DNA of 45,206 nt, from assembly GCA_013287475.1 (NCBI GenBank), contig JABDDT010000018.1, positions 1 through 45,206 on the forward strand, given 5' to 3'. Below, one piece after another: positions 715 through 36,023 of the stretch. Position 1 is the first letter of the stretch; every line of letters starts with the position of its first letter. The notes under the pieces were generated by a model. That model did not search any database and was not told the DNA's origin. It worked only from the letters and a program-made list of their open reading frames with translations. The stretch is from Bacteroidota bacterium (GTDB lineage: Bacteria; Bacteroidota; Bacteroidia; Chitinophagales; Chitinophagaceae). The position numbers and the translations under genes are program-made.

Positions 715-772
715 AATTGTCAATGGTTAATTGTAAATGAATATTAAATAAACTCCTGTAAATCTCCACACT

Positions 773-796
773 CCCATACTCCCATACTCCCATACT
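773..796. repeat. octamer tandem array CCCATACT x3
   Basis: Three perfect copies of CCCATACT (773-780, 781-788, 789-796), preceded by a degenerate copy at 765-772. The array ends 5 nt from the stop codon of the ABC ATPase gene on the minus strand. The same octamer recurs at 19981-20020. Confidence 0.9.
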
Positions 797-801
797 TCTC
801 T

Positions 802-1566
802 TTATTCCTCCCTCCACTCTTTTCCCGTCATTTGGATGAAAACATCCTCCAGGTTAGCTTTCTTTACTTCTTTTGGTCTTTCAAAACCAGTAGCAACAAG
901 TTTGTCAATCAGCTGATCGGGCGAATCTAATGCAATAATTTTGCCTGAATCCATAATCGCTACACGATCACAAAGTACTTCAGCTTCATCCATATAATGT
1001 GTTGTTATAATGACTGTTGTTCCGGAAGAACATATGTCACGAACCAAATCCCACAGATTCCTCCGGGCCTGGGGATCAAGACCTGTAGTAGGTTCATCCA
1101 GGAAAATAATCTTTGGCTGATTAATAAGTGTTGTCGCTATTGAAAAACGTTGCTTCTGCCCACCACTGAGTTCTTTATATTTTGATTTGGCCTTATCAAG
1201 CAGATTTACTTTTCCAAGAAATTCCGATGGTTTGACATCCCGATTATACAAACCCCCGAACAACATCAGTAATTCGGTTAAATTCAGGTTAGGATAATAA
1301 CCTGAAGTTTGGAGCTGAACGCCGATTCTTTTTTTTATTTCATTGGGGCTTTTATCCAGGTCAATTCCATCAACAAATATTTTTCCAGAGGTTTTTTCAC
1401 GAAGGGTTTCTATAATTTCAAGGGTAGTCGATTTACCAGCCCCGTTGGGGCCGAGTAATCCAAAAATTTCCCCCTGGAATACTTCGAAACTAATATGTTT
1501 TACGGCTTCAAAATCTCCGTATTTTTTCGAAAGTTCGCGGACTGAAATAATGGCTTGTTTTTCCAT
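802..1566 (-). CDS. ABC transporter ATP-binding protein (ABC-2/drug-export type)
   Basis: A 254-residue cytoplasmic ATPase subunit of an ABC exporter. All ATPase motifs are present in order: Walker A GPNGAGKST (about residues 40-48), Q-loop region, signature LSGGQKQR, Walker B KIIFLDEPTTGLDP, and the H-loop in TTHYMDEAE. The DEPTTGLDP and HYMDEAE forms are typical of the DrrA/NatA-like (ABC-2) group, which pairs with a separate membrane permease. No permease lies next to it in this window: the gene upstream is a CAP protein and the one downstream a YfiT-like protein. Its partner is therefore elsewhere, or lost. The start is taken at the ATG at 1566 (MEKQAIISVRELSKKYG); an upstream TTG would add three residues. 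Confidence 0.92.
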   Translation of the reverse strand: MEKQAIISVRELSKKYGDFEAVKHISFEVFQGEIFGLLGPNGAGKSTTLEIIETLREKTSGKIFVDGIDLDKSPNEIKKRIGVQLQTSGYYPNLNLTELLMLFGGLYNRDVKPSEFLGKVNLLDKAKSKYKELSGGQKQRFSIATTLINQPKIIFLDEPTTGLDPQARRNLWDLVRDICSSGTTVIITTHYMDEAEVLCDRVAIMDSGKIIALDSPDQLIDKLVATGFERPKEVKKANLEDVFIQMTGKEWREE

Positions 1567-1613
1567 GATGGGCAAGTTACGCCATGGCCATTAAAAGAAA
1601 CAACTCCCCATCA

Positions 1614-2084
1614 TTACCTGGAAAAAATCTGTGTAAAATAAATATTACCTTTCTTATCTCTGGCGTATCCAATTCCTGTGAGGATAAAATTACCTTCAAT
1701 ATTTTTTCTATGACCCGGGCTATTTAACCAGCCATCCACCACTTCTCTTGCATTCATTGGGCCGGAAGCCACATTTTCACCTACTTCTACGGCGCCCACA
1801 GATTTTTGTATGGATTTAGCCCTGGAATTAAAGCCATCATGTCCAAATTTAACTTTACCGGTTGCCATGTCCTGACTGTGTTTAAAAGCCAGAGAGGATT
1901 CCATAACGTTTAACTGCAGGGGTGTGAGATCGTGTTGTTTCCTGTCGTCGTTTACGAATTGTAAAATTTCTGTTTCCATTGTATCCATCCGCACATCAGC
2001 ATTAATGGGATATATGCCTGAAAACAGGATCATCGAAATATAAAGTTTATATATTAATATCATCATAGGTCCACAAATTCCCAT
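1614..2084 (-). CDS. CAP/SCP (YkwD-like) domain secreted protein
   Basis: A 156-residue protein with a hydrophobic N-terminal export signal (about residues 8-28, ending near INADV) followed by one CAP domain. The fold's conserved points are seen: FGHDGFNSR, GENVASG and WLNSPGHRKNI with the expected His/Glu pair, then GIGYARDKKGNIYFTQIF at the C-terminus. Length matches the compact bacterial YkwD type. The biochemical role of bacterial CAP proteins is not settled; a periplasmic or extracellular location is the safest statement. Three in-frame ATGs (2084, 2066, 2063) are possible, and the second or third would give a more usual signal peptide. The gene lies 48 nt upstream of the ABC ATPase on the same strand, so they may be co-transcribed. 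Confidence 0.88.
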   Translation of the reverse strand: MGICGPMMILIYKLYISMILFSGIYPINADVRMDTMETEILQFVNDDRKQHDLTPLQLNVMESSLAFKHSQDMATGKVKFGHDGFNSRAKSIQKSVGAVEVGENVASGPMNAREVVDGWLNSPGHRKNIEGNFILTGIGYARDKKGNIYFTQIFSR

Positions 2085-2140
2085 TAATATACAATCGATT
2101 TTTGAACTGATTGAAGCAGAAAGTTTTTTTTAACATAGTT

Positions 2141-2168
2141 ATTGCGATCTTCAACCATATTATCTTTG
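2141..2168 (+). promoter_or_regulatory. Bacteroidota-type promoter for aspartate kinase
   Basis: A perfect -7 element TATCTTTG (consensus TAnnTTTG) sits at 2161-2168, with ATTG at 2141-2144 as the -33 element, 16 bp apart. This spacing is slightly short of the usual 17-20. The ATG at 2190 follows after a short leader, and the position supports that downstream start. Confidence 0.6.
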
Positions 2169-2189
2169 CGCCTCTGTAAATATGCAATC

Positions 2190-4656: not shown

Positions 4657-4768
4657 CGGTACGGATAAAGTTACTTATTAAAACAAAAATCCGGCCATAT
4701 TATTATGTCAGAGCATTGAATAAGGCTTGAAAACCAGATTGTTTTATCTTCACGCCATAATTGGAAAA

Positions 4769-5911
4769 ATGCTCAAAATCGGAATTTTAGGCGGAGGCCA
4801 GCTGGGAAGAATGCTTTTACAGGCTGCTGCCAATTATCCTGTGGAGACACTGGTTCTTGAAAACGACACGGAATGTCCGGCTGCTCATCTTTGCCATCAT
4901 TTTGTAAAAGGTGATATCAGGAATTTTAATGACGTATATAATTTTGGAAAAACACTGGATGGCATAACCATTGAAATAGAATCTGTAAATGTAGAAGCAC
5001 TGGAAAAGCTGGAAAATGAAGGTGTAAAAATTTATCCTAGACCTTCTGCACTTCGTATTATCAGGGACAAGATTCTGCAAAAACAATTCTATAAGGAAAA
5101 TGAAATACCAAGCCCAGTTTTCAGGATTACAGAGAAAAAGGATGACCTGAAAAAATTTTATGATTTTCTTCCCGCGGTACATAAAAAGGCTTCAGGTGGT
5201 TATGATGGAAGAGGTGTACAGGTTTTATCGGAAGAAAAGGACCTGCATCTTGGTTTTGACCAGCCATCCGTTCTGGAAAAAAAGGTGGATATACATAAAG
5301 AAATTTCCCAGATTATTGCGATAAATGCATCCGGACAGACGGCATTATATCCAGCAGTTGAAATGATATTTAACCAGACTTTGAATCAGCTGGATTACCA
5401 GTTGAGTCCTGCAGAAATTCCTCAACACACGTCCTGGCGTGTCGAAGCGATTGCATTGAAAGTGGTGAAGGAATTAAAATCACCTGGCATATTTGCTGTT
5501 GAAATTTTTATTGATAAAAACGGAGATGTTCTTGTAAATGAAACTGCTCCGCGCGTACATAACAGCGGACATCATACTATCGAAGCGAATTTCAGTTCAC
5601 AATTCGATATGCTGTGGCGGGTCATGCTGGATTATCCACTGGGTAATCCAAAGCATATTGTACACGCCGCTATGGTAAATCTAACTGGAAGTGAAGGGAA
5701 TTCCGGCAATGCTGTTTATGAAGGAATCGATGAGATTCTTAAAATGGAAAATATTTTTCTTCATCTTTATGGCAAAAAAGAAACCAGGCCGGGAAGGAAA
5801 ATGGGACATATTACCATCCTGAGCCCGGAAAAAAGCGACCTGGTTTACAAAGCAAAAATCATAAAACAAAAGTTCCGGATCATATCACATCAATCCCAAA
5901 TAACAGTATGA
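4769..5911 (+). CDS. purK: 5-(carboxyamino)imidazole ribonucleotide synthase
   Basis: ATP-grasp enzyme of purine synthesis: it carboxylates AIR with bicarbonate and ATP to N5-CAIR, the substrate of PurE. The 380-residue product starts [16 protein letters not shown], the PurK hallmark, and carries [16 protein letters not shown] (ATP-grasp lysine loop), then [20 protein letters not shown] with the metal-binding Asn/Glu residues. The ATG at 4769 places the Rossmann-like glycine motif directly at the N-terminus, as in the family; a longer frame from 4727 adds 14 unrelated residues. The stop overlaps the purE start by 4 nt (ATGA), which indicates a tightly coupled two-gene operon. A weak promoter-like pair (TTG 4727, TATCTT 4745) lies upstream. 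Confidence 0.96.
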
Positions 5912-6417
5912 ATCATGTGGCCATCATCATGGGCAGCGACAGCGACCTGGCGATTATGCAACCAGCTGCAGATTTACTTAAGTCGTTCGGAATTCCTTTT
6001 GAACTAACCATTGTTTCTGCCCACCGCACTCCTCAACGTCTTGTCAGCTATGCCACAAAAGCCAAGGAAAGAGGATTTAAAGTTATCATTGCTGGGGCTG
6101 GTGGTGCTGCACACCTGCCCGGGATGGTAGCCTCCCTTACATCACTGCCGGTGATTGGCGTACCTATCAAATCTTCCAATTCGCTGGACGGTTGGGATTC
6201 TATACTCTCTATCCTTCAAATGCCTACAGGAATACCCGTTGCAACCGTCGCCCTGAATGCTTCCAAAAATGCAGGTATACTGGCAGCATCCATCCTCGGA
6301 GCTTTTGACGAAAAAATCTCCGCGAGTGTTGAAGCTTTCAAAAAAACCCTTGAGTCTGATGTAAAAGAGAAAATAGCGAAATTGAAAAAAGACGGATGGG
6401 AAAACAATTTTGATTAA
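5908..6417 (+). CDS. purE: N5-CAIR mutase, class I PurE
   Basis: Converts N5-CAIR to CAIR in purine synthesis. The 169-residue length and motifs fit class I PurE, the octameric bacterial type that works with Pur[10 protein letters not shown] at the N-terminus (CO2/phosphate-binding loop), SAHRTPQRL with the catalytic histidine, and [16 protein letters not shown]. The pairing with purK immediately upstream confirms the class I function rather than direct AIR carboxylation by class II. The start ATG lies inside the purK stop (ATGA overlap). Downstream there is no strong terminator; instead an 11-bp tandem repeat begins 9 nt after the stop. Confidence 0.97.
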
Positions 6418-6425
6418 AGGTGCTT

Positions 6426-6467
6426 ACAGAGACCTTATAGAGACTTTACAGAAACCTTACAGAGACC
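6426..6467. repeat. 11-bp tandem array after purE
   Basis: Four successive units: ACAGAGACCTT (6426-6436), ATAGAGACTTT (6437-6447), ACAGAAACCTT (6448-6458) and a partial ACAGAGACC (6459-6467). It starts 9 nt after the purE stop codon. The period is exactly 11 bp with single-base differences between units. Confidence 0.85.
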
Positions 6468-9552: not shown

Positions 9553-9691
9553 CATTAAGCTTAAAGCGTAAGGCTTAAGGCTTAAGGCAAAATTCAATCT
9601 TAAATAAGGTCCATAGTCCAAATTTATTTAACAAAAAAATTATCAATTGAAAGCCTTTCGCCTTAAGCTTTTCGCTTTAAGCCTTAAAACC
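9553..9691. repeat. inverted heptamer arrays between rimO and nhaA
   Basis: The divergent gap holds two arrays of 7-bp units. The left one (9553-9587) reads CATTAAG, CTTAAAG, CGTAAGG, CTTAAGG, CTTAAGG. The right one (about 9650-9691) carries the reverse-complement type of unit (TTCGCCT, TAAGCTT, TTCGCTT, TAAGCCT). About 60 bp of AT-rich sequence separates them. They could pair as a long imperfect hairpin. Confidence 0.8.
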
Positions 9692-9706
9692 TTATCTTCG
9701 AAATCT

Positions 9707-10894
9707 ATGAAAAAGGTTGTACCGAGCGTTTTGTTCCAGCAGTTTTTTAATAGTGAGAAAGCAGGCGGACTGATCTTAATTTTCTGCACAACTATTTCGC
9801 TCCTGATTGCCAATTCTTCCATCGGACCTGATTTTATCCATTTATGGCATACTCAAGCGACCCTGCATATTGGTCAGCTAATCATACCTTTTCGGATTGA
9901 GGAATGGATCAATGATGGTTTGATGACCATTTTCTTTTTATTGGTAGGACTTGAAATTGAACGTGAGCTTTATATAGGAGAATTATCATCTTTTAAAAAT
10001 GCAACCCTTCCAATACTTGCAGCCGTTGGCGGCATGCTGGTTCCGGCGCTGATTCATTTTTTATTCAACCATGGCAAGCCGGAACAGGCAGGTATTGGCA
10101 TCCCGATGGCTACGGATATTGCATTTTCGCTGGGAGTTTTGTCCCTCATTGGAAAACGGATACCCCTATCGCTAAAAATATTCCTGACCGCCCTTGCAAT
10201 TATAGACGATTTGGGAGCTGTTATCATCATTGCAATATTCTATACGCAGTCTTTTTCCTTTTTTTATCTTTCATTGGCACTGGGTCTTTTTCTGATATTA
10301 CTTTTACTTAACCGGATGAAAGTTTTCTCGCTTTGGGCTTACCTGATTCCTGGAATTCTGCTTTGGTATTTCTTATACAGATCAGGCGTCCATCCTACCC
10401 TGAGTGGCGTAATGCTTGCGTTCACCATACCCTTTCGTAAAAACATGGTCCAACAACCCTCTTCATTCCTGCAACACGTTTTACATAAACCCGTGAATTT
10501 TATTATCATTCCACTGTTTGCTTTGGCTAATACTGCCATCCACCTGCCATCTTCCTGGAAAGCAGAAATATTCAGTTCAAACAGTCTTGGTATATCATTA
10601 GGGCTGTTTATTGGTAAACCATTGGGAATTGCCGGTTTTAGTTTGCTGGGCATTGGTCTGGGCATAGCCAAACTTCCGGAAGGCATGAATACTACCAAAT
10701 TGGTTGGAATGGGACTTTTGGCAGGTATTGGATTTACCATGTCCATCTTTATCAGCAACCTTGCTTTTAATTCGAATGATGAACTGATTCAGAGTTCCAA
10801 AGTGGCGGTATTGATTGCATCCATATTGTCCGCATTAATCGGATGGATCATCCTAAAAGCGGGAATGAAGGAATCGGATAATCTTAATGCTTAA
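9707..10894 (+). CDS. nhaA: Na+/H+ antiporter NhaA
   Basis: Inner-membrane antiporter that expels sodium in exchange for protons. The 395-residue length matches NhaA. The N-terminal FFNSEKAGGLILIFCTTISLLIANS, the MTIFFLLVGLEIERELYIGEL block and GIGIPMATDIAFSLGVL are family signatures; the essential aspartate pair is in LAIIDDLGAVIIIAIF. About eleven to twelve hydrophobic segments are visible. A 20-residue N-terminal extension encoded by the upstream repeat (9647-9706) is open but is unlikely to be translated, so the ATG at 9707 (MKKVVPSVLFQQFF) is chosen. Stop codons of nhaA and the convergent ftsY overlap by 2 nt (TTAA). Confidence 0.95.
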   Translation: MKKVVPSVLFQQFFNSEKAGGLILIFCTTISLLIANSSIGPDFIHLWHTQATLHIGQLIIPFRIEEWINDGLMTIFFLLVGLEIERELYIGELSSFKNATLPILAAVGGMLVPALIHFLFNHGKPEQAGIGIPMATDIAFSLGVLSLIGKRIPLSLKIFLTALAIIDDLGAVIIIAIFYTQSFSFFYLSLALGLFLILLLLNRMKVFSLWAYLIPGILLWYFLYRSGVHPTLSGVMLAFTIPFRKNMVQQPSSFLQHVLHKPVNFIIIPLFALANTAIHLPSSWKAEIFSSNSLGISLGLFIGKPLGIAGFSLLGIGLGIAKLPEGMNTTKLVGMGLLAGIGFTMSIFISNLAFNSNDELIQSSKVAVLIASILSALIGWIILKAGMKESDNLNA

Positions 10895-12106: not shown

Positions 12107-12108
12107 GA

Positions 12109-15884: not shown

Positions 15885-15919
15885 GCGTTCAGCGTTCAGC
15901 GTTGAGCGTTAAGCATTAA
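15885..15919. repeat. heptamer array GCGTTCA/GCGTTAA x5
   Basis: Five units in register: GCGTTCA, GCGTTCA, GCGTTGA, GCGTTAA, GCATTAA. It lies between the ppx stop (15878) and the panB start (15957). Confidence 0.9.
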
Positions 15920-15956
15920 GTTGAAACGGATTATCTTTAACATTCAACATAAATAA

Positions 15957-19908: not shown

Positions 19909-19931
19909 TAATAATTTACAAAGTATTGGCA

Positions 19932-19967
19932 AAGACTATCCCCTTCCAGGGGATGGTCTTTTATTTT
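19932..19967 (+). terminator. Rho-independent terminator after TonB receptor
   Basis: AAGACTATCCCC pairs with GGGGATGGTCTT (12 bp, one G-U) around a TTCCA loop, followed by TTATTTT. It lies 23 nt after the receptor stop. Confidence 0.9.
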
Positions 19968-19980
19968 AAGTAAGTTCATT

Positions 19981-20020
19981 CTCATACTCCCATACCTCCA
20001 TACTTCCATACTCCCATACT
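19981..20020. repeat. octamer tandem array CNCATACT/TCCATACT x5
   Basis: Five 8-bp units in register: CTCATACT, CCCATACC, TCCATACT, TCCATACT, CCCATACT. It sits between the receptor terminator and the ALDH start, and belongs to the same sequence family as 773-796. Confidence 0.9.
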
Positions 20021-20052
20021 TTCTTAATAACTTGCGTTTTCAATCGAATGAT

Positions 20053-21576
20053 ATGGATTTCTTAAAAGAACTTGGTGTTCATGCGCGTAATCCCGGAAGC
20101 TCTACCGGATTGAAATGGTATGATAATCCGAAACAAACCATTGAATCCTTTTCTCCCGTCGACGGAAAAAAGATTGCAGCAGTTTCAGAAACTACTGCAG
20201 AGAATTATAATCAAATAATTCTTCAGGCCCAGGAGGCGTTTTTAATTTGGAGAACCTGGCCTGCTCCGAAGCGTGGTGAAATGGTTCGCCAGGTGGGTGA
20301 AGCACTTCGCGAAAAAAAACATGCACTTGGAAGTCTCGTAAGTTATGAAATGGGCAAGAGCCTACAGGAAGGGCTCGGAGAAGTACAGGAAATGATTGAT
20401 ATATGTGATTTTGCCGTTGGTCTTTCACGTCAGCTTCATGGAATTACCATGCATAGTGAAAGACCACTGCACCGCATGTATGAACAATGGCATCCTCTGG
20501 GGATTGTAGGAATAATTTCTGCATTTAATTTTCCAGTCGCTGTATGGAGCTGGAATAGTATGCTGGCCTGGGTTTGTGGAAATGTTGTTATCTGGAAAGG
20601 TTCGGAAAAAACACCGTTATGTTCAGTCGCTTGCCAGTTGATTATTTCAGAAATTTTCAAAAAAAATGAAGTGCCGGAAGGCGTTAGTAATATCATAACG
20701 GGAGGGCGGGAAGCTGGGGAATGGATGAGTGCGGATCACCGTATTCCGCTGGTTTCTGCAACCGGATCCACCCGCATGGGCAGGGCCCTGGCTGGAGTGG
20801 TTGCCTCCAGACTGGGGAAATCTATTTTAGAACTCGGCGGTAATAATGCAATCGTAATTAGTGAACATGCAGACCTTGATATTGCAGTCACGGGAGCTTT
20901 GTTTGGAGCTGTAGGAACCGCAGGTCAACGGTGTACAAGTACAAGAAGGCTCATCATTCAGGAAAAGATTTATGAAAAAATAAAAAATAAACTGGTCAGT
21001 GCATATACACAGTTAAAAATTGGAGATCCGCTGAATGAAAAAAATCATGTAGGTCCGCTTATTGACAAGCAGGCAGTTAATATGTATGAGAAGGCTATTG
21101 AAGCCTGCAAAAAACAGGGCGGCCATTTTGTGGTTGAAGGCGGAGTTTTATCAGGCGCCGGGTATGAAAGTGGATGTTATGTGAAACCATGTATCGCAGA
21201 AGTGAAACCCGAATTCGAAATCGTTACACAGGAAACATTTGCCCCGATTCTTTATTTACTGAAATATAAAACGCTGGACGAGGCAATTCAAATTCAGAAT
21301 AATGTACCTCAGGGACTTTCTTCAGCTATCATGACACTGAATCTGCGCGAAGCTGAACAATTCCTTTCCCAAAACGGCAGTGATTGTGGGATCGCTAATG
21401 TGAATATTGGTACATCCGGTGCCGAAATCGGAGGGGCTTTTGGCGGAGAAAAAGAGACCGGAGGCGGAAGGGAAAGTGGAAGTGATGCCTGGAAATCTTA
21501 CATGAGGCGGCAGACGAATACAATTAATTATTCGACCAAGTTACCTCTTGCACAGGGGATCCAGTTTGACCTTTAA
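20053..21576 (+). CDS. aldehyde dehydrogenase, ALDH7 type (aminoadipate-semialdehyde / piperideine-6-carboxylate)
   Basis: A 507-residue NAD(P)-dependent aldehyde dehydrogenase. The N-terminus (LGVHARNPGSSTG, ESFSPVDGKKIA) and the segment WHPLGIVGIISAFNFPVAVWSWN are typical of the ALDH7/antiquitin group, which oxidises 2-aminoadipate 6-semialdehyde in lysine breakdown. Catalytic residues are visible: Glu in LELGGNNAIV and Cys in GTAGQRCTSTRRL. The NAD-binding TGSTRMGR and the C-terminal GGAFGGEKETGGGRESGSDAWK also fit. The start is the ATG at 20053; a longer frame needs a TTG. The specific substrate is inferred from subgroup resemblance. A large heptamer array begins at the first base after the stop. 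Confidence 0.9.
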   Translation: MDFLKELGVHARNPGSSTGLKWYDNPKQTIESFSPVDGKKIAAVSETTAENYNQIILQAQEAFLIWRTWPAPKRGEMVRQVGEALREKKHALGSLVSYEMGKSLQEGLGEVQEMIDICDFAVGLSRQLHGITMHSERPLHRMYEQWHPLGIVGIISAFNFPVAVWSWNSMLAWVCGNVVIWKGSEKTPLCSVACQLIISEIFKKNEVPEGVSNIITGGREAGEWMSADHRIPLVSATGSTRMGRALAGVVASRLGKSILELGGNNAIVISEHADLDIAVTGALFGAVGTAGQRCTSTRRLIIQEKIYEKIKNKLVSAYTQLKIGDPLNEKNHVGPLIDKQAVNMYEKAIEACKKQGGHFVVEGGVLSGAGYESGCYVKPCIAEVKPEFEIVTQETFAPILYLLKYKTLDEAIQIQNNVPQGLSSAIMTLNLREAEQFLSQNGSDCGIANVNIGTSGAEIGGAFGGEKETGGGRESGSDAWKSYMRRQTNTINYSTKLPLAQGIQFDL

Positions 21577-21704
21577 CGCTGAACGCTTAACGCCTAAAGC
21601 CTAACGCGGAACGTTTAACGCTTTTATGTTAGCGTTACGCGTTAGGCTTTAAGCGTTCAGCGTTAGGCGTTAAGCGTTAAGCATTCAGCCTTAAGCGTTA
21701 AGCC
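21577..21704. repeat. inverted heptamer array (GCGTTAA family)
   Basis: The whole gap after the ALDH stop is made of GCGTTAA/GCGTTCA/GGCTTTA units. The left arm (21577-21624) is in the reverse-complement sense, the right arm (21631-21704) in the direct sense. The arms match over more than 20 nt and differ by the loss of whole 7-bp units. Confidence 0.88.
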
Positions 21705-21748: not shown

Positions 21749-23215
21749 ATGAACCCGATCAGAATTTATCGTAACTTATTAGTCCTCATCTTCTCCCTTC
21801 TGGTATTCACCTTTCTTCCTGCCCAGATAAGATTGTCTGCCCTGGGCGGAATTCAATCTTCTAACTTCATAGAAAAAAATTCGATACCTGGTTATGATAC
21901 TGCCAGAGGGAATTATTTTTCACCGAATACCGGATTTGAACTGGGCGTTCTGGCCGAAATCCCTTTTGGTAAATATAACCTGTATCTGCAGCCGGGTATT
22001 CTTTATAGTTCCAAGGGAAATCAATTTCAGAGGTACTATGATTCGAGCGTATATCAAACAGATACGCTATATAATCAGAACACATTAAACCTGAATTACG
22101 TTGAAATTCCACTCTATTTAACCTGGAAACTTTCTCTTTCCAAAGATCAGAAAAATCATTTTTTTATTAGTGCCGGCCCTTATTTTGCGTTTATTTACAG
22201 CGCTAACCAATCGTATCAGAACCGGGTTTTACAATATAATTCTTCCAATTATATTTATCAGTCAGGCACGGAAGACCTGCCTGTTGGCTTAGGCCCCCAA
22301 AAATATAAAACCTATGATATAGGCTTAGTTGCAAAAGCAGGTTTTGAATTTGGAAATGTTTTTATCAGCGCCTATTTCAACCGGGGTCTTACAAATGCTT
22401 ATACTGCCTTGTACCCATCAAGCTTTCATAATCAGGTGTTTGGAGGATCATTTGGTATATGGTTAAATAATCCTAAGCCGGTTTCCGAACCTCCAAAAGA
22501 TTCGGATAATGATGGAACTCCGGATCAGGATGATTCATGCAGGACGATTCCCGGACCCCCCAGATGGCATGGGTGCCCGATACCGGATTCTGATCATGAT
22601 GGTATAAATGATGAGGAAGATTCCTGTAAAACGGTCCCTGGTCTGATCCGTTACCATGGATGCCCAATTCCGGATACAGATAAGGATGGAGTGAATGATG
22701 AAGAAGATTCCTGTAAAACAGTTCCTGGACCTGCAAGATATCACGGATGCCCGATACCGGATAGGGATAATGATGGAGTTAATGATGAATTGGATAAGTG
22801 TCCTGATCAGCCGGGTCCTGCGGAAAACCAGGGTTGTCCTGTTGTTAAAGCATCCATTAATAAACGGGCGCAACTTGTGGCTGCAAATATTATGTTTGAT
22901 ATCAACAGTACCCGTCTTACCGAGGGATCATATCCGCCCATAAAGGAGCTGGCAGACAGCCTGAAAGCAAATCCGGACCTTGATTTAGTTATTGAAGGCC
23001 ATACTGATGACGTGGGCAATCCGGCTTATAACCAGAAGCTTTCCATAAACAGGGCAGAAACAGTCAAAAAAGTACTTATAAAATTAGGAATTTCTGCGAG
23101 CCGTATCCAGACTAAGGGTTATGGTGATTTCCGGCCTGTTGCAACAAATGACAATGCAGAAGGAAGAGCAAAAAACAGGCGAGTGGTTTTTGTGTTCCAA
23201 TTAAAGAACCGTTAA
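21749..23215 (+). CDS. OmpA-family protein with beta-barrel and thrombospondin type-3 repeats
   Basis: A 488-residue outer-membrane protein in three parts. After a signal peptide (ending near FTFLPAQ) residues 26-245 form an outer-membrane beta-barrel of the PorT type (ALGGIQSSNF, FELGVLAEIPFGKYNLYLQPGI). Residues about 250-368 hold four thrombospondin type-3 units of 29 residues with the calcium-binding pattern DxDxDGxxDxxD and paired cysteines (CKTVPG...RYHGCPIP). The C-terminal OmpA domain (about 370-488; IMFDINSTRL, IEGHTDDVGNPAYN, LSINRAETVKKVL, RAKNRRVVF) binds peptidoglycan. Together this suggests a calcium-stiffened link between outer membrane and cell wall. The middle units are nearly identical, a sign of recent expansion. 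Confidence 0.93.
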   Translation: MNPIRIYRNLLVLIFSLLVFTFLPAQIRLSALGGIQSSNFIEKNSIPGYDTARGNYFSPNTGFELGVLAEIPFGKYNLYLQPGILYSSKGNQFQRYYDSSVYQTDTLYNQNTLNLNYVEIPLYLTWKLSLSKDQKNHFFISAGPYFAFIYSANQSYQNRVLQYNSSNYIYQSGTEDLPVGLGPQKYKTYDIGLVAKAGFEFGNVFISAYFNRGLTNAYTALYPSSFHNQVFGGSFGIWLNNPKPVSEPPKDSDNDGTPDQDDSCRTIPGPPRWHGCPIPDSDHDGINDEEDSCKTVPGLIRYHGCPIPDTDKDGVNDEEDSCKTVPGPARYHGCPIPDRDNDGVNDELDKCPDQPGPAENQGCPVVKASINKRAQLVAANIMFDINSTRLTEGSYPPIKELADSLKANPDLDLVIEGHTDDVGNPAYNQKLSINRAETVKKVLIKLGISASRIQTKGYGDFRPVATNDNAEGRAKNRRVVFVFQLKNR

Positions 23216-25072: not shown

Positions 25073-25106
25073 ATAGCAAATTGCTTAAAGTAATTTGCTA
25101 TTTTTT
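25073..25106 (+). terminator. terminator hairpin abutting the MFS start codon
   Basis: ATAGCAAATTGC pairs with GTAATTTGCTAT (12 bp, one G-U) around a TTAAA loop, followed by six T residues (25101-25106). It is a good Rho-independent terminator for the S8 protease gene. The MFS ATG starts at the next base, 25107. Confidence 0.85.
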
Positions 25107-26249
25107 ATGCCCCTGATACAACGACGTCTCCACAGAATTGCCGTAAGTAGTTTTTTCTTTCTTGCAGGAATCTGCTTCGCGTCCTGGGCATCCCGTATTC
25201 CTGATATACAAGCCAAATTACAACTCAATAGTGCTGCGCTTGGCGGGATTCTGCTTTGTCTGCCGGTTGGATTACTTTGCTCATTACCAATAGCTGGTTT
25301 TCTTGTAGCAAAATATGGTAGTCGCATCATTGTGATGCTTGCTTCTGCTTTATATGCTACTACCCTGCCGTTGCTGGGATTTGCCAATTCTTCCACACAA
25401 CTAATGATCACATTATTCTTTTTTGGATTTGGTGGAAATATGCTGAACATTTCTATGAATACACAGGCCGTGGGAACTGAAACTCTGTACCAAAAACCTA
25501 TTATGGCTTCCTTCCATGGCATCTGGAGTACAGCTGGTTTTACCGGAGCTGCGGTGGGAACTTTAATGGTTCGTTTTCATGTAATACCACCCTATCATTA
25601 TTTATGCATAACAGGCCTTGCCGCCCTTATCCTCTTTATTTTTTCCGGTAAATTAATTCGTAAGGATAGTAACCTTGATGAAAAACAACCCATTTTTGCG
25701 CGGTTGGATAAATCAATAATAAATTTCGGACTGATAGCATTTTGTTCAATGATTTGTGAAGGAGCCATGTTCGACTGGAGCGGAGTATATTTTCTGAATG
25801 TTGTTAAACCCGGTGCAGCCTGGGTCACAATCGGATATACAGCATTCATGTGTACCATGGCTTCTGGAAGATTTGTAGGAGACTGGGTCGCCTACAGGCT
25901 AGGGATGAAAAGAATGCTTCAGCTGAGTGGATTAATGACAGCATCAGGTTTATTACTAGCGGTCTTTTTCCCACAATTCATAACTGCCACCATCGGATTC
26001 TTAATAGTAGGGGCAGGTGTTTCCTCCGTTATACCAATGGTCTATAGCACAGTTGGAAAATCGAAAGTTATGTCGCCCGGTGTAGCCATTGCAGCAGTTT
26101 CAACAATTGGTTATCTGGGGTTTTTATTTGGTCCCCCTTTTATAGGTTTTATCGCTCAGGCTACCAGTCTGCGTGTTTCATTTAGTTTCATCGCTGTTAT
26201 GGGGACAATGATTGCTGTGATTGCAACGAGGATCAGGATGGACACTTGA
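25107..26249 (+). CDS. MFS transporter, YbjJ-like
   Basis: A 380-residue major facilitator with about twelve hydrophobic segments. The N-terminal half contains GICFASWASRIPDIQAKLQLNSAALGG and GFLVAKYGSRIIVMLAS (the cytoplasmic loop 2-3 pattern), followed by MASFHGIWSTAGFTGAAVG, which resemble the E. coli YbjJ and fucose-permease-like group. The C-terminal half has GRFVGDWVAYRLGMKRML. The substrate is unknown. The ATG at 25107 lies directly after the T tract of a terminator, so there is no room for a promoter or leader; either transcription reads through or the leader contains the hairpin. The stop is followed at once by the 26250-26330 hairpin. Confidence 0.88.
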   Translation: MPLIQRRLHRIAVSSFFFLAGICFASWASRIPDIQAKLQLNSAALGGILLCLPVGLLCSLPIAGFLVAKYGSRIIVMLASALYATTLPLLGFANSSTQLMITLFFFGFGGNMLNISMNTQAVGTETLYQKPIMASFHGIWSTAGFTGAAVGTLMVRFHVIPPYHYLCITGLAALILFIFSGKLIRKDSNLDEKQPIFARLDKSIINFGLIAFCSMICEGAMFDWSGVYFLNVVKPGAAWVTIGYTAFMCTMASGRFVGDWVAYRLGMKRMLQLSGLMTASGLLLAVFFPQFITATIGFLIVGAGVSSVIPMVYSTVGKSKVMSPGVAIAAVSTIGYLGFLFGPPFIGFIAQATSLRVSFSFIAVMGTMIAVIATRIRMDT

Positions 26250-26330
26250 TAGTGTGGTAGTGTGGTAGTGTGGTAGTGTGAGAATCGGATTTCCACTACC
26301 ACACTACCACACTACCACACTACCACACTA
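26250..26330. repeat. perfect inverted octamer array (31-bp hairpin) between convergent genes
   Basis: The left arm is TAGTGTGG repeated (26250-26280); the right arm is CCACACTA repeated (26299-26330). Positions 26250-26280 and 26300-26330 are perfect reverse complements over 31 nt, with a 19-nt loop. The array fills the whole gap between the MFS stop (26249) and the S41 protease stop (26332). It probably stops transcription from both sides. Confidence 0.93.
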
Positions 26331-26331
26331 T

Positions 26332-28479
26332 TTACTTGTTATACACAACTGCTTTCAATGAAATCATATCATCCATCACATTAACGGTTTCTTTCAGATA
26401 AATATCTGTTTTGCGGCTGTCGACCCATTGTTTATACCTATCCGCCTTATCCTTGTCCTCGCTGTATTTAAGTGTATCCTGAGGTATTGAATAAATATTC
26501 ATTGGTACGGTTAACTTACTGACAGAATCTATTTGTTTTACAGTTGCGCGAATCATTTTTTGTTCATCCTGGTAAACTTTCAGATTCAGCGGATACATTT
26601 TATCATTCTGTTTATCCAGCCACGCAGCATCGCTGGAAATGGTCGTGAAAGCCGTATTAGTGCTGGTTCTTTCTGTACTGGAAGTTCTGATATTGTTTAT
26701 ATCATACGCGTATTTCCATGTAGTATAATCTGCTTTGGGCATTTCGTCCCAGGCCAGCGCATCCGGCTGATCTTTCTCACGTATCTTATAATGCTCATAA
26801 AGATCAGGAAGTACTATATCGGAAAATACTCCCCGCAATTGGGTGGAACCTCCGTTTATACGATAAAATTTCTGCAGAGTAAGTTTTACTGTACCCAGTG
26901 GCCCTCCCATATCATTATACCCAATATTTTTATCCAGTGGAATATTTCTCTGAACCGTTCCCTTTCCATAGGTACTGGTACTGCCAATTATTATACCTCT
27001 ATGGTAATCCTGAATGGCTGCTGCAAAAATTTCTGAAGCCGAAGCGCTGAATTCATTTACCATAACAGCGAGCGGGCCATCATACAAAACACTTTTATCA
27101 CGGTCATTCAATACCTGTGGTTTTCCATCACGGTCGCGTACCTGAACTACAGGACCCTGTTCAATAAAGAGTCCAACCATTTGAACGACATCAATCAGTG
27201 AACCCCCTCCGTTATTACGCAGATCGAGAACAATTCCATCCACCTTTGCCTCCTTAAGTTTGATAATTTCCCTTGCCACATCTACGGAACAGCGATTACC
27301 TTTGGGATTATCGAAATCAGCATAAAATTCCGGAAGGAAAATATATCCGATTTTTCCTTTCTCACTCTGAATGATTACGCTCTTGGCAAACTTTTCATCC
27401 TGAACAATTTCATCCCTGATCAGACTAACTACTTTAACAGATCCATCTGCCTTTTTCAATGTAAGTTTTACTTCTGTCCCCTTATTACCCCGGATGATTT
27501 TTACCGCATCTTCTACCATATAACTTGAAAGGTCGACCGGTTCCTGGTTGCCCTGAGCTACTTTCAGAATGACATCTCCCACATTAACCTGACCTGATTT
27601 CCAAGCCGGACTGCCAGTTACCAGTGTGACAATTTTAATAGTTCCTTCTTCATCGCGAAGTGCAGCTCCGATGCCGTAAAAGCGACCACTCATATCTTCA
27701 TCGAAAGATCTCTTTTCAACAGGAGGGAAATAATCCGTATGAGGATCCATACATTGCACAATAGTTTCTACAAAAACATTGAAGAAATTATCTTCATCCG
27801 CTTTTATTTTAAGGTGATCATAAAATCTGTCTGTTACTTTAAGTGTTTTGTCTCTGGCCTCCTTCTCAAGCTGATCATTGGTTTTTGCAACATAACCAGG
27901 TTTACCTTTTGCAGCAGTCTGCTGATCCAGAAGTTCAGCATATTTTTCAAGCGTGAGATATTTCAATTTTTTCCTGATATCTTCCTTCTGCGCTGCAGTA
28001 TTAACCGGATAATCCAGTTTGTCATAATCCAGGTTAACTGTTTCCTGTTTGTTAAAATCAAACGGTTGTGTGAGAATCTCGTGGGAGATATTCTGCGTTT
28101 CCTGCAATCTTTTTTTGTAAATAAGAAGTACAGCCGGTACAAACTGAACAGGTTCCTTGCCTAAAATTTCATCATCAAGCTGGTTCTGAAATTTGGATAA
28201 TTCCAGAATATCTGATTTGAGGAAGATTTTTTTCTCCACGTCTTCTTCTCCCAAAAACTTCTTAAATACTTCTCTCGAAAATTGATCGTCAATATTTTTG
28301 GGACTGTAATGAATCTCTTCAAGCAACTCGCTTACATTTTTCAGTATTCTTTCATATTTAGTAGGCGGATCACCGGCAAACGCAAAAGCCTTGAGCGCTA
28401 TAACAACTCCAATTACGGAAACGAACAAAACAATAGGTAAATTCCTTTTATTGAACATAAATGAAAACAGTTTTGACAT
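26332..28479 (-). CDS. carboxy-terminal processing (tail-specific) protease, S41 family
   Basis: A 715-residue periplasmic protease of the Prc/Tsp type. The N-terminus has one membrane or signal segment (LPIVLFVSVIGVVIALKAFAF). A helical region precedes a PDZ domain (FYGIGAALRDEEGTIKIVTLVTGSPAWKSGQVNVGD). The catalytic core follows with IGYIFLPEFYADF, GIVLDLRNNGGGSL, the Ser in NEFSASASEIFAAA and the Lys in STYGKGTVQRN, which form the Ser-Lys dyad. A C-terminal DUF3340-like region completes the Prc layout. It probably trims or degrades periplasmic proteins with exposed C-termini and tunes cell-wall enzymes. A TATTTTTG element just before the ATG (28491-28484, minus) may be the -7 box of a near-leaderless promoter; no -33 partner is clear. 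Confidence 0.95.
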   Translation of the reverse strand: MSKLFSFMFNKRNLPIVLFVSVIGVVIALKAFAFAGDPPTKYERILKNVSELLEEIHYSPKNIDDQFSREVFKKFLGEEDVEKKIFLKSDILELSKFQNQLDDEILGKEPVQFVPAVLLIYKKRLQETQNISHEILTQPFDFNKQETVNLDYDKLDYPVNTAAQKEDIRKKLKYLTLEKYAELLDQQTAAKGKPGYVAKTNDQLEKEARDKTLKVTDRFYDHLKIKADEDNFFNVFVETIVQCMDPHTDYFPPVEKRSFDEDMSGRFYGIGAALRDEEGTIKIVTLVTGSPAWKSGQVNVGDVILKVAQGNQEPVDLSSYMVEDAVKIIRGNKGTEVKLTLKKADGSVKVVSLIRDEIVQDEKFAKSVIIQSEKGKIGYIFLPEFYADFDNPKGNRCSVDVAREIIKLKEAKVDGIVLDLRNNGGGSLIDVVQMVGLFIEQGPVVQVRDRDGKPQVLNDRDKSVLYDGPLAVMVNEFSASASEIFAAAIQDYHRGIIIGSTSTYGKGTVQRNIPLDKNIGYNDMGGPLGTVKLTLQKFYRINGGSTQLRGVFSDIVLPDLYEHYKIREKDQPDALAWDEMPKADYTTWKYAYDINNIRTSSTERTSTNTAFTTISSDAAWLDKQNDKMYPLNLKVYQDEQKMIRATVKQIDSVSKLTVPMNIYSIPQDTLKYSEDKDKADRYKQWVDSRKTDIYLKETVNVMDDMISLKAVVYNK

Positions 28480-29250: not shown

Positions 29251-29267
29251 TGAGTTATTTGCTCCTT

Positions 29268-32748: not shown

Positions 32749-32907
32749 TAATATTGTTGCAGAACCTGCATTTTTCTCTTCGGTAAAACAACGGCAATTA
32801 CTAATCCTGCTACGCTGTTTTTACAGTTATGCAAATGCCCAGGCTAAAAAAAACGCATAATACATCATCGCCAGAAACATTCATGAAGAATGAAATACCG
32901 ATACTAT

Positions 32908-33018
32908 AATTGTTAATTGTTAATTGTTAGTTGTAAACAAATTCTAAATAAATCTTTTTTTACTGCCTTATTTTTCTTCTGAAACATTTACAATTAACAA
33001 CTAACAATTAACAATTAA
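32908..33018. repeat. inverted heptamer array (ATTGTTA / TAACAAT)
   Basis: The left arm (32908-32937) repeats AATTGTT in tandem; the right arm (32988-33018) carries the complement (AACAATT). A 20-nt block matches perfectly, and the arms are offset by whole units. About 50 nt of T-rich sequence forms the loop. The right arm ends 1 nt before the stop codon of the Gfo/Idh gene on the minus strand. The rest of the 32749-33019 gap shows nothing else convincing. Confidence 0.85.
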
Positions 33019-33019
33019 T

Positions 33020-34420
33020 CTACCACCCCGCTCTGTATTCTCTTTTTACAAATTGATTGGCTTCATCAAAATTGGTGATCTTCATATTCACCGCGTCCCA
33101 TAATAATTTTTTTCTTCCTGGAAATCCTGTCCCTTTTTTTATATTCGAGGCTCTTAAAGCCAGGTTGCCCATCAGAATGGTTTCTGTTAACGGACCAGCA
33201 TATTCGAAGGGTGAACTGACTTCTTTACGACCATATCCTGCGAGACAGGCATTCACCCATTGTACATAATGTCCTTCAGGAACACGGGCAATTGTTTGCG
33301 GAATATTCACCTCTTTTGTTTTGGAAATTGGAAGAAGTTGGGGATTGCTTCCGTAAGTCCCACACATCATTTTCCCCTTTGTTCCGATTATCAGTACCCC
33401 ACCGTCGTTCCCTCCAAACTGCTCATCAGCACCCAATTCTTCCGGTCTTTCAGGAACAATTCCACCGTCCATCCAATGCAATTTCACATTTGGCTTACCA
33501 TCCGTACCAGGAAAATTCAGGATGACGGACGAGGCAGCTGGACAGCTTTCAGGAAAATAATCTGGTGTCCACATTTTTTCAAATATCGAAACCTGGCTGC
33601 ACTCCACTTCTGAAGGATAAAGCAGGCCGGTCGTTTTAAAAGCAGGATCGATCAGATGACAACCCATATCTCCCAGTGCACCGGTGCCAAAAGCCCAGAA
33701 GCCACGCCAGCTAAATGGAACGTATTCTTTATGATATGGTTCTTCTTTCGCCGGGCCAAGCCAGAGATCCCATTTTAGTTCTGGTGGAACTGGATCCGAA
33801 CTCTTAGGAGTACCTGTGCCCTGGGGCCAAACCGGACGATTGGTCCAGACTTTTATTTCTGTAGCATCTCCAATGATTCCGGAACGATACCATTCCTGCA
33901 TGGTTCTTACACCGTCTCCGGATGAGCCCTGATTTCCCATCTGGGTAACAACCTTATATCTTTTGGCATATTCTGTAAGTAACCGGGCCTCATATATATC
34001 GTGCGTCAGAGGCTTTTGTACATACACATGCTTGCCCAGCTGCATAGCAGCCACTGCAGCAACGGCATGACAGTTATCAGGAGTGGAAACAGATACAGCA
34101 TCTATGGATTTGTGTTCTTTTTCCAGCATCTCCCTGAAATCATAATATCTTATTGCTTTTGGAAAACGGCTAAGTGATTTTTTTATCTGACGGTCATCCA
34201 CATCGCACAGATATGAAATATTGGCATTGGGGCTTTTAGAAAATTCAAACAGGTCGCTCTCTCCTTTCCCGCCTGCGCCAATGCCTGCAATATTTAATTT
34301 ATCACTCGGTGCCACATAACCACGTCCCAGCACATGTCTTGGTACAATAAAAAAACCAGCCGCGGCAAGTGATGAAGTTTTAAGGAAATCTCTTCTTGAA
34401 TTATTGTTTTTTATTTTCAT
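33020..34420 (-). CDS. Gfo/Idh/MocA-family oxidoreductase, Tat-exported (copy 1)
   Basis: A 466-residue NAD(P)-dependent oxidoreductase of the glucose-fructose oxidoreductase/inositol dehydrogenase family. It has a twin-arginine signal (NNSRRDFLKTSSLAAAGFFIV), then the Rossmann fold (LNIAGIGAGGKGESDL, ISYLCDVDD, AVSVSTPDN). The family's EKP motif appears as YVQKPLTHDIYEAR, i.e. Glu is replaced by Gln while the functional Lys is kept. The C-terminal alpha/beta domain contains GTGALGDMGCHLIDPAF. The likely location is the periplasm, with a tightly bound cofactor; the sugar substrate is unknown. Its paralog lies 104 nt upstream on the same strand; the two share nearly the same signal region (RRDFLKTSSLAAAGF, IVPRHVLGRG, APSDKLNIAG). 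Confidence 0.93.
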   Translation of the reverse strand: MKIKNNNSRRDFLKTSSLAAAGFFIVPRHVLGRGYVAPSDKLNIAGIGAGGKGESDLFEFSKSPNANISYLCDVDDRQIKKSLSRFPKAIRYYDFREMLEKEHKSIDAVSVSTPDNCHAVAAVAAMQLGKHVYVQKPLTHDIYEARLLTEYAKRYKVVTQMGNQGSSGDGVRTMQEWYRSGIIGDATEIKVWTNRPVWPQGTGTPKSSDPVPPELKWDLWLGPAKEEPYHKEYVPFSWRGFWAFGTGALGDMGCHLIDPAFKTTGLLYPSEVECSQVSIFEKMWTPDYFPESCPAASSVILNFPGTDGKPNVKLHWMDGGIVPERPEELGADEQFGGNDGGVLIIGTKGKMMCGTYGSNPQLLPISKTKEVNIPQTIARVPEGHYVQWVNACLAGYGRKEVSSPFEYAGPLTETILMGNLALRASNIKKGTGFPGRKKLLWDAVNMKITNFDEANQFVKREYRAGW

Positions 34421-34473
34421 ATAACAAGTAATATTTGAATGTTTCGAAAAACAGAACAGCCGAAATAAATGAA

Positions 34474-34522
34474 GCGTTACGCGTTGCGCGTTACGCGTTA
34501 AGCGTTAAGCGTTAAGCGTTAC
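34474..34522. repeat. heptamer array GCGTTAM x7
   Basis: Seven 7-bp units in perfect register: GCGTTAC, GCGTTGC, GCGTTAC, GCGTTAA, GCGTTAA, GCGTTAA, GCGTTAC. The array lies between the two Gfo/Idh paralogs, 2 nt from the stop of copy 2. Confidence 0.95.
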
Positions 34523-34524
34523 GC

Positions 34525-35946
34525 TTAATAAGTCCTGTATGTTCTTTTTACAAACTGATTGGCAGGAGCAAAATTAGTGATCTCCATTTTTTCTCCGTCC
34601 CAGATTAATTTTTTGCGCCCCGGGAATATTTTTTCTCCCATGCTGTTATTTTCACTGTATTGGTAACTTCGTACTGCGAGGTTTCCCATCAAAACTGTTT
34701 CAGTGAGCGGTCCTGCAATTGCGAAATCTGAACTGGTATATGTACCATATCCTGTCTTGCAGGCTTTCACCCATTGTTGCTGATGACCTTCAGTTCCGCC
34801 TTCGACTAAAGGAAATTTTGATTTAGCCATTACCCGGTCTTTCATCAGGCTGGTTGGAAGTAGTGTTGCATTCGCCCCAAACTTTCCGGCCAGTAGTTTA
34901 CCTTTCGTTCCCTCGAATATCATTCCACCATCGACTTTGCTCATTTCCTCATCAGGCAATAGTTCCGCTGGTCTTTCCGGTAATATTCCACCATCGTACC
35001 AAATCATTTTAACCGGAGCAATAGCACCCCTTTGTGGAAATTGAATATAAGTTTTTGCTGAGGGAGGAAATCCATCGGTATTAATAACTTCTTTAAAATA
35101 ACCTGTGTAAACAGAGCCGATACTGGTTTCTGCGGAAATCGGATAACCCAGTTTCAATGCTAAATAAGGGGAATCTATAAAATGACAGCCCATATCTCCG
35201 AGTGATCCTGATCCATAATCTACCCATCCCCGCCAAATCGCGGGAAGAAATGCAGGATTATAATCACGTTGTGGTGCAGTGCCAAGCCAAAGGTTCCAAT
35301 CCAATTCTTTGGGAACATCAAACTGACCAGTAGGTGTGGCTATACCCTGCGGCCATGTTGGCCGATTCGTCCATACATGAACAGTGTGAACATCTCCAAG
35401 TAATCCATCCTGCAACCATGTTTCAATAAGACGTATATCATCTCCTGATGCCCCCTGATTGCCCATCTGAGTTACAACCTTATATTTTTTTGCAGCTTCC
35501 GTGAGCATCCGAGCTTCATAAATATCATGCGTCAGAGGTTTTTCAACATATACATGTTTCCCCAATTGCATGGCTGCCATGGCGATGGGCGCATGCATAT
35601 GATCAGGCGTGGTTATCATTACCGCATCAATATTTTTCCCTTCTTTTTCCAACATCACCCGATAATCTTTATAATATGGCGACTTAGGCCATTTTGTTCT
35701 TGCGTTTATTGATCTGCGGTCATCCACATCGCAGAGTGCCGCAATATTATCTGAACCGTTATTAAATGCTTTTGGAAGATTTGTTTCAGCCCGGCCTCCC
35801 ACACCAACACCGGCAATATTCAATTTATCACTGGGAGCAATAAAACCACGACCCAGTACATGCCTGGGAACAATAATAAATCCTGCTGCAGCCAATGAAG
35901 AAGTTTTGAGAAAATCTCTTCTTGATTTATAGCTTTTAGTTTTCAT
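34525..35946 (-). CDS. Gfo/Idh/MocA-family oxidoreductase, Tat-exported (copy 2)
   Basis: A 473-residue paralog of the gene downstream. The twin-arginine signal (SRRDFLKTSSLAAAGFIIV) and first Rossmann segment are almost the same as in copy 1. The canonical EKP motif is intact (YVEKPLTHDIYEARML), and YGSGSLGDMGCHFIDSPY marks the C-terminal domain. The two copies then diverge in substrate-lining regions, which suggests duplication followed by specialisation. Both stop and start are separated from copy 1 by a heptamer array, but both genes probably belong to one transcript. The ATG at 35946 (MKTKSYKSRRDF) is preferred over a start two codons upstream. The substrate is unknown; members of this exported subgroup often act on glycans or glycosides. 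Confidence 0.93.
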   Translation of the reverse strand: MKTKSYKSRRDFLKTSSLAAAGFIIVPRHVLGRGFIAPSDKLNIAGVGVGGRAETNLPKAFNNGSDNIAALCDVDDRRSINARTKWPKSPYYKDYRVMLEKEGKNIDAVMITTPDHMHAPIAMAAMQLGKHVYVEKPLTHDIYEARMLTEAAKKYKVVTQMGNQGASGDDIRLIETWLQDGLLGDVHTVHVWTNRPTWPQGIATPTGQFDVPKELDWNLWLGTAPQRDYNPAFLPAIWRGWVDYGSGSLGDMGCHFIDSPYLALKLGYPISAETSIGSVYTGYFKEVINTDGFPPSAKTYIQFPQRGAIAPVKMIWYDGGILPERPAELLPDEEMSKVDGGMIFEGTKGKLLAGKFGANATLLPTSLMKDRVMAKSKFPLVEGGTEGHQQQWVKACKTGYGTYTSSDFAIAGPLTETVLMGNLAVRSYQYSENNSMGEKIFPGRKKLIWDGEKMEITNFAPANQFVKRTYRTY

Positions 35947-35981
35947 ATACAATTAGTAATGACGATTATTCAATCAACACT

Positions 35982-36023
35982 GGCTTTGGGCTTTAGGCTT
36001 TGGGCTTTAGGCTTTGGGCTTTA
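35982..36023. repeat. heptamer array GGCTTTG/GGCTTTA x6
   Basis: Six 7-bp units that strictly alternate GGCTTTG and GGCTTTA (equally three 14-bp units). It ends 3 nt before the OsmC stop codon, in the gap between OsmC and Gfo/Idh copy 2. Confidence 0.95.

Follow-up and report, generated by a model that had tools for sequence, protein, structure and literature searches.

The window analysed here is one whole contig (C18; JABDDT010000018.1, 45,206 nucleotides) of the draft genome of a Bacteroidota bacterium of the family Chitinophagaceae (assembly GCA_013287475.1, called G000 below; 3.16 Mb, 137 contigs, 74% complete). Between its genes lie tandem arrays of short units, and our analysis confirmed that these arrays form a real, genome-wide class with a strict period, sited at gene ends. 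We consider it probable that they are the arms of dispersed intergenic palindromic elements with tandem-repeat stems, which resemble repetitive extragenic palindromic (REP) sequences in behaviour but lack their tags, and for which no RAYT gene was detected.

Period of the arrays and their position at gene ends

Arrays were detected by a self-match scan at a single threshold (periods 5-16), with stretches explained by a period of 1-4 removed beforehand. Rules were formed on a first sample, made up of the window and 40 kb from the start of each of the contigs C1-C10 (445 kb), and a further 395 kb of G000 was held out, giving 840 kb together. Genes were called with a simple hexamer-scored open reading frame (ORF) caller, whose starts are rough and whose stops are more reliable. 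The relatives labelled G003, G005, G006, G008, G015, G016 and G019 are other genomes of the genus; G008 and G015 are 99% complete, and most of the drafts are incomplete.

The scan found 66 arrays in the first sample and 107 in the held-out sample, 173 altogether, or roughly one in every 5 kb. No array appeared in any of five dinucleotide shuffles of the first sample. The genome scan proposed in a preliminary description of the window thus revealed a genome-wide class. The commonest periods were 7 (90 arrays), 8 (47) and 14 (27), followed by 16 and 11 (three each) and 9, 12 and 15 (one each). Period 7, 8, 14 or 16 was therefore shown by 167 of the 173 arrays, and none of them had a period of 5, 6, 10 or 13. 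The units are contiguous and 7-8 bp long, not long repeats with unique spacers between them, and the class is not CRISPR, as had been stated.

The preliminary description had named ten arrays in the window, each with one strict period (7 or 8 bp, once 11). Tandem Repeats Finder (TRF) recovered all ten, and the self-match scan returned 13 arrays, covering all ten places except the right arm at 9651 (Table 1). The strict period was borne out, the 11-bp type being an outlier (3/173). It was also correct that eight of the ten arrays touch a stop codon or sit within about 10 nt of one (the exceptions are 9557, in a divergent gap, and 19983, 74 nt off) and that four are inverted upon themselves, as four inverted pairs were found. 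The statement that no array interrupts a gene stood for the window, where the called genes contain none of the 13 scanned arrays and two arrays overlap a stop codon by 2 nt. It did not stand elsewhere, since 6 of the 173 arrays lie inside called genes, three per sample. The arm 9651-9687 precedes a called start but falls within the longest TTG-started ORF, 9647-10894.

Comparison with random placement within the same gaps (1000 placements), the check suggested earlier, showed arrays nearer to stops than expected. In gaps with a stop end, 34/54 arrays of the first sample were within 10 nt of the stop (random mean 15.0, maximum 25), and the held-out sample gave 54/97 (random mean 25.8, maximum 38). 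Starts showed no clustering, with 4/36 arrays nearby in the first sample against 6.4 expected and 12/82 in the held-out sample against 14.4. In the two samples together, arrays occupied 26/64 convergent, 71/271 tandem and 10/125 divergent gaps that measured 40 nt or more. Where an array lay within 12 nt of a stop, the stop codon was in phase with it in 42/88 genes (9.9 expected).

Rewriting of protein C-termini by the arrays was considered and rejected. Of 43 comparisons in which the stop has an array, 40% showed unaligned protein ends, one of the 43 being a protein cut by a contig end; without an array the figure was 27% of 115. Five or six conserved window proteins retain their last residues in array-free relatives; the products of 14988-15878 and 25107-26249 differ. 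Because several conserved proteins keep their last residues, the arrays seem to reach the stop and not to rewrite the protein.

Unit families, polarity and conserved centres

The unit families were A (AANGCNT), B (AGTRTRRG), C (YAATTGT), D (TTGRCNG), E (GRGWTAT) and F (TAATYAT). Intergenic arrays were assigned to a family in 46/60 cases in the first sample and 82/104 in the held-out sample; the 14 and 22 set aside include several that are visibly A- or B-like. The earlier statement that the unit differs from gap to gap had to be corrected: the units of different gaps are not independent, and most are variants of a few families present at many loci. One family A pattern showed 111 matches in G000, 69 in G005, 44 in G016 and 12 in G015, with no match in the other 29 genomes of the genus or in 25 genomes outside it. 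Stop codons differed by family: A adjoined TAA in 20/24 cases and D adjoined TGA in 7/9, and B was TAG-rich (10/24), against background counts of 412 TAA, 195 TGA and 103 TAG.

The forward direction of each family was fixed mainly on the first sample and then tested on the held-out sample. The forward strand of the unit points away from the gene, towards the inside of the gap. Of the classified arrays no more than 12 nt from a gene edge, 25/25 at stops and 4/4 at starts showed this polarity in the first sample, as did 42/43 and 9/9, respectively, in the held-out sample. At any distance, judged by the nearer gap side, it was observed in 39/46 and 75/82 arrays, and held-out arrays without an inverted same-family partner kept it in 39/45. 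As the forward strand leaves the gene at both gap edges, most gaps have the layout (forward)…(reverse) of a long hairpin. Some gaps contained arms of two families (e.g. D+ A-, B+ D-, F+ A-), with the forward-reverse order kept.

In a family-free test on arrays within 50 nt of an edge in G000 and relatives, purine-rich outward strands prevailed by 122 to 25 among the 151 arrays at stops and by 38 to 10 among the 49 at starts. Composition was rejected as the cause of polarity: the overall excess of purines does not extend to families C and F.

Gaps frequently carried arms that are reverse complements of each other; 50 such pairs were listed in G000 and 30 in relatives. The hairpin 26247-26334, folded as RNA, gave −63.3 kcal/mol compared with −23.9 kcal/mol for shuffles (z −11), and no T tract follows it at position 26331. 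Arms were more alike within a locus than across loci of the same family (0.936; 0/5000 permutations) for 40/50 G000 pairs, the other ten having failed length or class filters.

Alike centres between the arms in G008 and G006 prompted a search for the core GGACTTTAGNTGCGAATTCGCACC. With up to three mismatches it was found at 57 places, 21 in G008, 18 in G006 and 18 in G019; there was no match in the other 30 genomes of the genus, and none for a reversed control. All of the 40 core loci that were read had tandem units on at least one side (by eye), and in none of them did the core lie in a called gene; at a few (e.g. L121, L135, L145, L154) the second arm was degenerate or cut by a contig end. 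The units beside the core were GTTGACG, GTTGATG or GTGGATG/GTATATG, and copies of one core carried differing units. That the centre is conserved and the stems are exchanged speaks for copying. In-register arm identity at the core loci was 0.758, against 0.655 for random pairing of loci (0/2000 permutations).

The inner-edge motif CCTAAAACTTCTTTTTGGATCTCC, again with up to three mismatches, matched 11 times in G000 and once in G005, with no match in 31 other genomes and none for the control. In 7/8 of its loci with the left gene pointing in (12 loci read), the GC of the first unit comes immediately after that gene's stop TAA. An A-to-B junction, 'GCA-AGTGTG', was observed at three loci. In L169, from the public Bacteroidetes metagenome-assembled genome BWOrgHeat, family A-like units lead into an AGTATGAG/AGTATGGG array through a 'GCA-AGT' junction resembling that of G000; the two junctions may perhaps belong to a shared composite element. 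Contig C1 of G015 carries CGCAAAG-type palindromes (L047-L050; joined coordinates 21373-21458, 56905-56990 and 62876-62935) whose centres are alike in part (AGAAAATTTAATATCCCGAAC...) and which may form a further core-bearing subfamily.

Table 1. Tandem arrays and hairpin parts located in the window, with their neighbouring genes.
Feature	Position	Strand	Details
8-bp array CCATACTC, single arm	766..796	-	forward unit AGTATGGG exits gene 802-1575(-), 5 nt past stop
11-bp array CTTACAGAGAC	6423..6467	.	5 nt past stop of 5908-6417(+); outlier period, no family assigned
Left arm, family A (AAGCTTA-like)	9557..9588	+	period 7; divergent gap
Right inverted arm AAGCCTT, partner of 9557 arm	9651..9687	-	period 7; TRF only, below main-scan threshold
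Family A-like GCGTTCA array	15885..15920	-	period 7; 6 nt past stop of 14988-15878(+)
8-bp array CATACTCC	19983..20020	-	ahead of next gene; terminator-like hairpin and T tract upstream
Left arm, family A TTAACGC	21575..21623	+	period 7; starts within stop codon of 20032-21576(+)
Right inverted arm AGCGTTA	21631..21703	-	period 7; partner of 21575..21623
Left arm TAGTGTGG x3.9	26250..26280	+	period 8; immediately past stop of MFS gene 25095-26249(+)
Loop separating arms of 26250 hairpin	26281..26293	.	
Right arm CACTACCA x4.6	26294..26330	-	period 8; 1 nt from stop of tail-specific protease gene 26332-28479(-)
Left arm, family C TAATTGT	32907..32934	+	period 7
Right arm ATTAACA	32986..33018	-	period 7; 1 nt from stop of 33020-34420(-)
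Family A array GCGTTAC	34474..34524	-	period 7; adjoins stop of 34525-35952(-)
Family A array GGCTTTG/GGCTTTA	35982..36028	-	period 7/14; enters stop codon of 36027-36437(-)

The window also contains an 87-bp repeat in 2.6 copies (22568-22789), which lies within the ORF 21749-23215 and is probably a protein repeat.

Relatives, other phyla and known repeat systems

Contigs of the seven relatives that carry the window's genes were compared, units and terminators being called by eye among the gaps listed. This comparison, also proposed beforehand, showed that arrays persist in some relatives and that elsewhere another unit or none is present. Same-family arrays were observed in G000 and G005 at four orthologous gaps, and both 34474-34524 and 35982-36028 have a same-family array at the orthologous place in G005. 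In gap 21577, G000 and G005 have family A arrays, GTTGATGG units stand in G008, G006 and G019, and G003 has no such array. Gap 9536 holds family A in G000, GATGACGG/GTTGACGG in G008, GTTGATGG in G006 and no clear array in G003 or G015. The CATACTYC array of gap 19909 (19909-20052) is shared by G000 and G005 and absent from G016 and G003. Gap 26250 holds the octamer hairpin in G000; G016, G003 and G008 show a terminator-like hairpin with a T tract there, and the counterpart in G006 and G019 is 15 nt long. In the gap past the tail-specific protease gene of G015 (L067), a run of N lies between two inverted A/T-rich copies, where the window has its octamer hairpin.

Three exact copies of AGTATGGG were found in 27 stretches from 15 genomes (by title) of several phyla. 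A reverse-complement arm (at least 13/16) within 200 nt of these arrays was present downstream in 8/15 genomes and upstream in 0; the reversed-probe control gave 3 downstream and 0 upstream. The D-type pattern occurred in 13/395 genomes of the phylum and its reversed control in 18/395 (counted from the table). A phylum-wide special use of the D unit was rejected, as the control was commoner, and the search shows no more than the presence of several kinds of heptamer array in the phylum. The reversed control matched in G430 (47 and 75 matches), G277, G175, G150 and others; these are other heptamer arrays, another dialect within the phylum.

The preliminary description recognised no known pattern in the arrays, which was too strong. 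Position and polarity are already published for heptamer arrays of GGGAATC (Xanthomonas) and GGGGAYT (Nostoc), the Rehm heptamers (Rehm et al. 2015, PMC4692102), and the arrays here are a variant of this known kind. According to the passages of that source considered here, such arrays occupy many loci, mostly intergenic, lie near or overlap stops on the coding strand and lie near starts on the non-coding strand, are under-represented between divergent genes, and vary in length and sequence between species. Inverted pairs number 70 and 75 in two Xanthomonas species. Quadruplex formation in vitro was reported, and the function was left open there. The arrays of G000 share the strict 7-nt head-to-tail units, the many mostly intergenic loci and the same polarity, with stops on the coding and starts on the non-coding strand; 8-nt units are common here as well. 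They differ in that G tracts are missing from families A, C and F and present in part in family B. Several families per genome, 8-bp units, conserved centres, mixed-family gaps and other units at orthologous gaps go beyond those passages.

The TAACTGA direct repeats (MacGregor 2015, PMC4679880) are, in the passages considered, likewise intergenic heptamer arrays of patchy distribution, including a few Bacteroidetes, and some relatives' orthologous gaps are array-free. They differ in lying mostly just before starts in the Guaymas Maribeggiatoa and in having almost no inverted sets (one indirect repeat versus 169 direct sets). Long simple sequence repeats (Mrazek 2007) and the tandem heptamers of Calothrix have units of 5-11 bp with heptamers commonest, and the passages on them mention no polarity, core or palindrome. 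Among open-access papers screened by title and abstract opening, we found no account of conserved centres between tandem-repeat arms or of the G000 dialect in Bacteroidetes.

The preliminary description had also set the arrays apart from REP. REP sequences are described as palindromes of 20-40 bp with a stem of 5-13 bp, no tandem arms and an unpaired GTAG or CGTC tag (PMC3733652, in part); GTAG REPs go with a RAYT (Y1 tyrosine transposase) gene in the genome. The distinction stands as far as the known tags and the RAYT gene are concerned: GTAG and CGTC were noticed only inside repeat units by eye, no systematic tag search having been made, and stems here are tandem units of tens of nucleotides (by eye). 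It does not stand for behaviour, which is REP-like in the dispersed extragenic palindromes in many copies (two subfamilies), the hairpins and the preference for unidirectional and convergent gaps. Inverted arms are present at the array loci; a miniature inverted-repeat transposable element would in addition have a target-site duplication and a parent transposon. The bacterial system DRT10, in which a reverse transcriptase with a noncoding RNA template makes tandem-repeat complementary DNA (PMC12632851, in part), shares the synthesis of short tandem-repeat DNA and differs in its 9-nt unit and its reverse transcriptase with RNA template.

Origin of the arrays and their meaning

In the reading that we regard as probable, each element would have the layout (7- or 8-bp unit)n - centre - (reverse complement)n. 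Copies would have spread through the genome, as observed for the subfamilies marked by the centre and the inner-edge motif and as would apply to the rest, so that one genome uses a small dialect of units. Replication slippage would add units to an arm or remove them, and both arms at a locus would be kept alike, probably via fold-back template switching in the hairpin. Insertions and expansions would survive mainly outside coding and promoter DNA, and arms would therefore come right up to stops. The near-constant forward-then-reverse order would follow if copies descend from palindromes of equal arm order, an order that might originally have been set, speculatively, by fold-back of the purine-rich strand. 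Effects on RNA, such as termination or 3'-end protection, would be plausible side effects of a very stable hairpin.

Several observations weigh against this reading. At any distance the polarity had exceptions in 7/46 arrays of the first sample and 7/82 held-out arrays, and one of 53 multi-array gaps (some with unclassified members) was in reverse-then-forward order. The array 15885-15920 is by eye oriented contrary to the rule; the script left it unclassified and hence uncounted. Mixed-family gaps are unexplained by a simple palindrome without later replacement. At the core loci both arms were alike in a named unit class in 25/38 cases, with six more 'other' in both, and arm identity was no higher than among same-class loci (0.758 versus 0.769); unit-by-unit mirroring beyond unit class was accordingly rejected. 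The other G000 centres gave 6 pairs at a score of at least 12 versus 4.0 for shuffled ones, and 2 versus 0 at a score of at least 14, on which counts a general loop similarity across G000 was rejected. As most G000 centres are no more alike than shuffled ones, copying is established for the subfamilies only. Among the AGTATGGG arrays in other phyla, 12/27 lay inside ORFs according to a crude longest-ORF caller. Finally, Y1_Tnp (PF01797, RAYT) had no match in G000, G005, G016, G003, G006, G008 or G019, of which several are incomplete drafts and G008 is 99% complete. A RAYT or IS200 source was ruled against by this result in seven array-bearing or neighbouring genomes; a Y1_Tnp match is present in G015.

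The arrays could instead be neutral simple-sequence DNA, each having grown in place as the polymerase slipped, preferably by 7-8 nt at a time, and selection having removed such DNA everywhere but between genes. The strict period of 7 or 8, the locus-specific nature of most centres and the conserved proteins that keep their last residues beside an array at the stop agree with this view, and both a heptanucleotide excess (Mrazek 2007, cited in PMC4679880) and the slippage idea itself (PMC4692102) appear in the published passages considered. We regard it as unlikely, as the same small set of unit families reappears, in one orientation, at many loci and the view is already strained by conserved cores, with motifs kept at 57 and 11 places. 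The earlier suggestion of slippage or templated writing therefore holds in part: slippage probably alters copy number, but the shared families and these motifs indicate copying too. An assembly artefact might be suspected in an incomplete draft of 137 contigs; this is extremely improbable, since G005, a separate draft, has same-family arrays in four orthologous gaps (by eye) and arrays are also present in the 99% complete G008 and G015. Templated addition, in which a telomerase-like enzyme extends 3' ends at a break in the gap and the ends are then joined, would leave the forward unit on the 3' strand that points outward at either edge of the gap, as observed even where the two sides have different units, and DRT10 shows that bacterial synthesis of tandem-repeat DNA is possible (PMC12632851, in the part considered). 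RVT_1 had no match in G000, G005, G016 and G015, the four genomes with a GCGTTA array (three incomplete, G015 99% complete), and a telomerase-like or DRT source was ruled against on this basis. The DRT10 unit is 9 nt long, yet one of 173 arrays has period 9, many unit types occur per genome and cores are conserved between arms. This explanation is thus very unlikely.

Selected RNA hairpins, acting as intrinsic or bidirectional terminators or as 3'-end protectors, would fit the proximity to stops, the convergent gaps being most often filled, the strong 26250 hairpin and the terminator-like hairpins of relatives in the orthologous protease gap (by eye). A strict detector found terminator-like sites in 0/26 array-bearing versus 6/38 array-free convergent gaps, a difference at p 0.07 that tandem gaps do not show (6/71 versus 19/200, p 1.0). 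A looser detector, which is noisy as it fires in 37/115 array-free divergent gaps, gave 9/26 versus 15/38 in convergent gaps (p 0.8) and 11/71 versus 56/200 in tandem gaps (p 0.04). These two home-made detectors speak neither for nor against a genome-wide replacement of terminators by arrays. Mixed-family gaps cannot pair, the 26250 hairpin lacks a T tract, and gap 19909-20052 contains a terminator-like hairpin as well as its array. A terminator or 3'-end protector role, as suggested earlier, would be plausible, but selection for it as the origin of the arrays is improbable to about the same degree as slippage. G-quadruplex elements, as proposed for GGGAATC and GGGGAYT, would share the polarity and the placement at stops and starts (PMC4692102, in the passages considered), and family B is G-rich. 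Polarity is kept, however, by the A, C and F units (AANGCNT, YAATTGT, TAATYAT), which have no G tracts; this argues against quadruplexes as the general cause, and we hold this explanation to be highly improbable.

Beyond the palindromic elements of G000, a wider reading is possible but doubtful. The intergenic 7-8-bp arrays of many bacteria (the G000 dialect, GGGAATC, GGGGAYT and others) might be one ancient non-autonomous palindromic class with swappable stems and a kept centre, in which the outward, usually purine-rich strand leaves the gene, the octamer recurs across phyla, stops serve as landing or junction sites, and neither a REP transposase nor a reverse transcriptase is involved.

An excess of heptamers between bacterial genes is in print without a settled explanation, and the polarity and the centres described here make the question testable. 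At about one array per 5 kb, and with 26/64 convergent gaps of at least 40 nt holding one, the elements may shape many transcript ends in G000.

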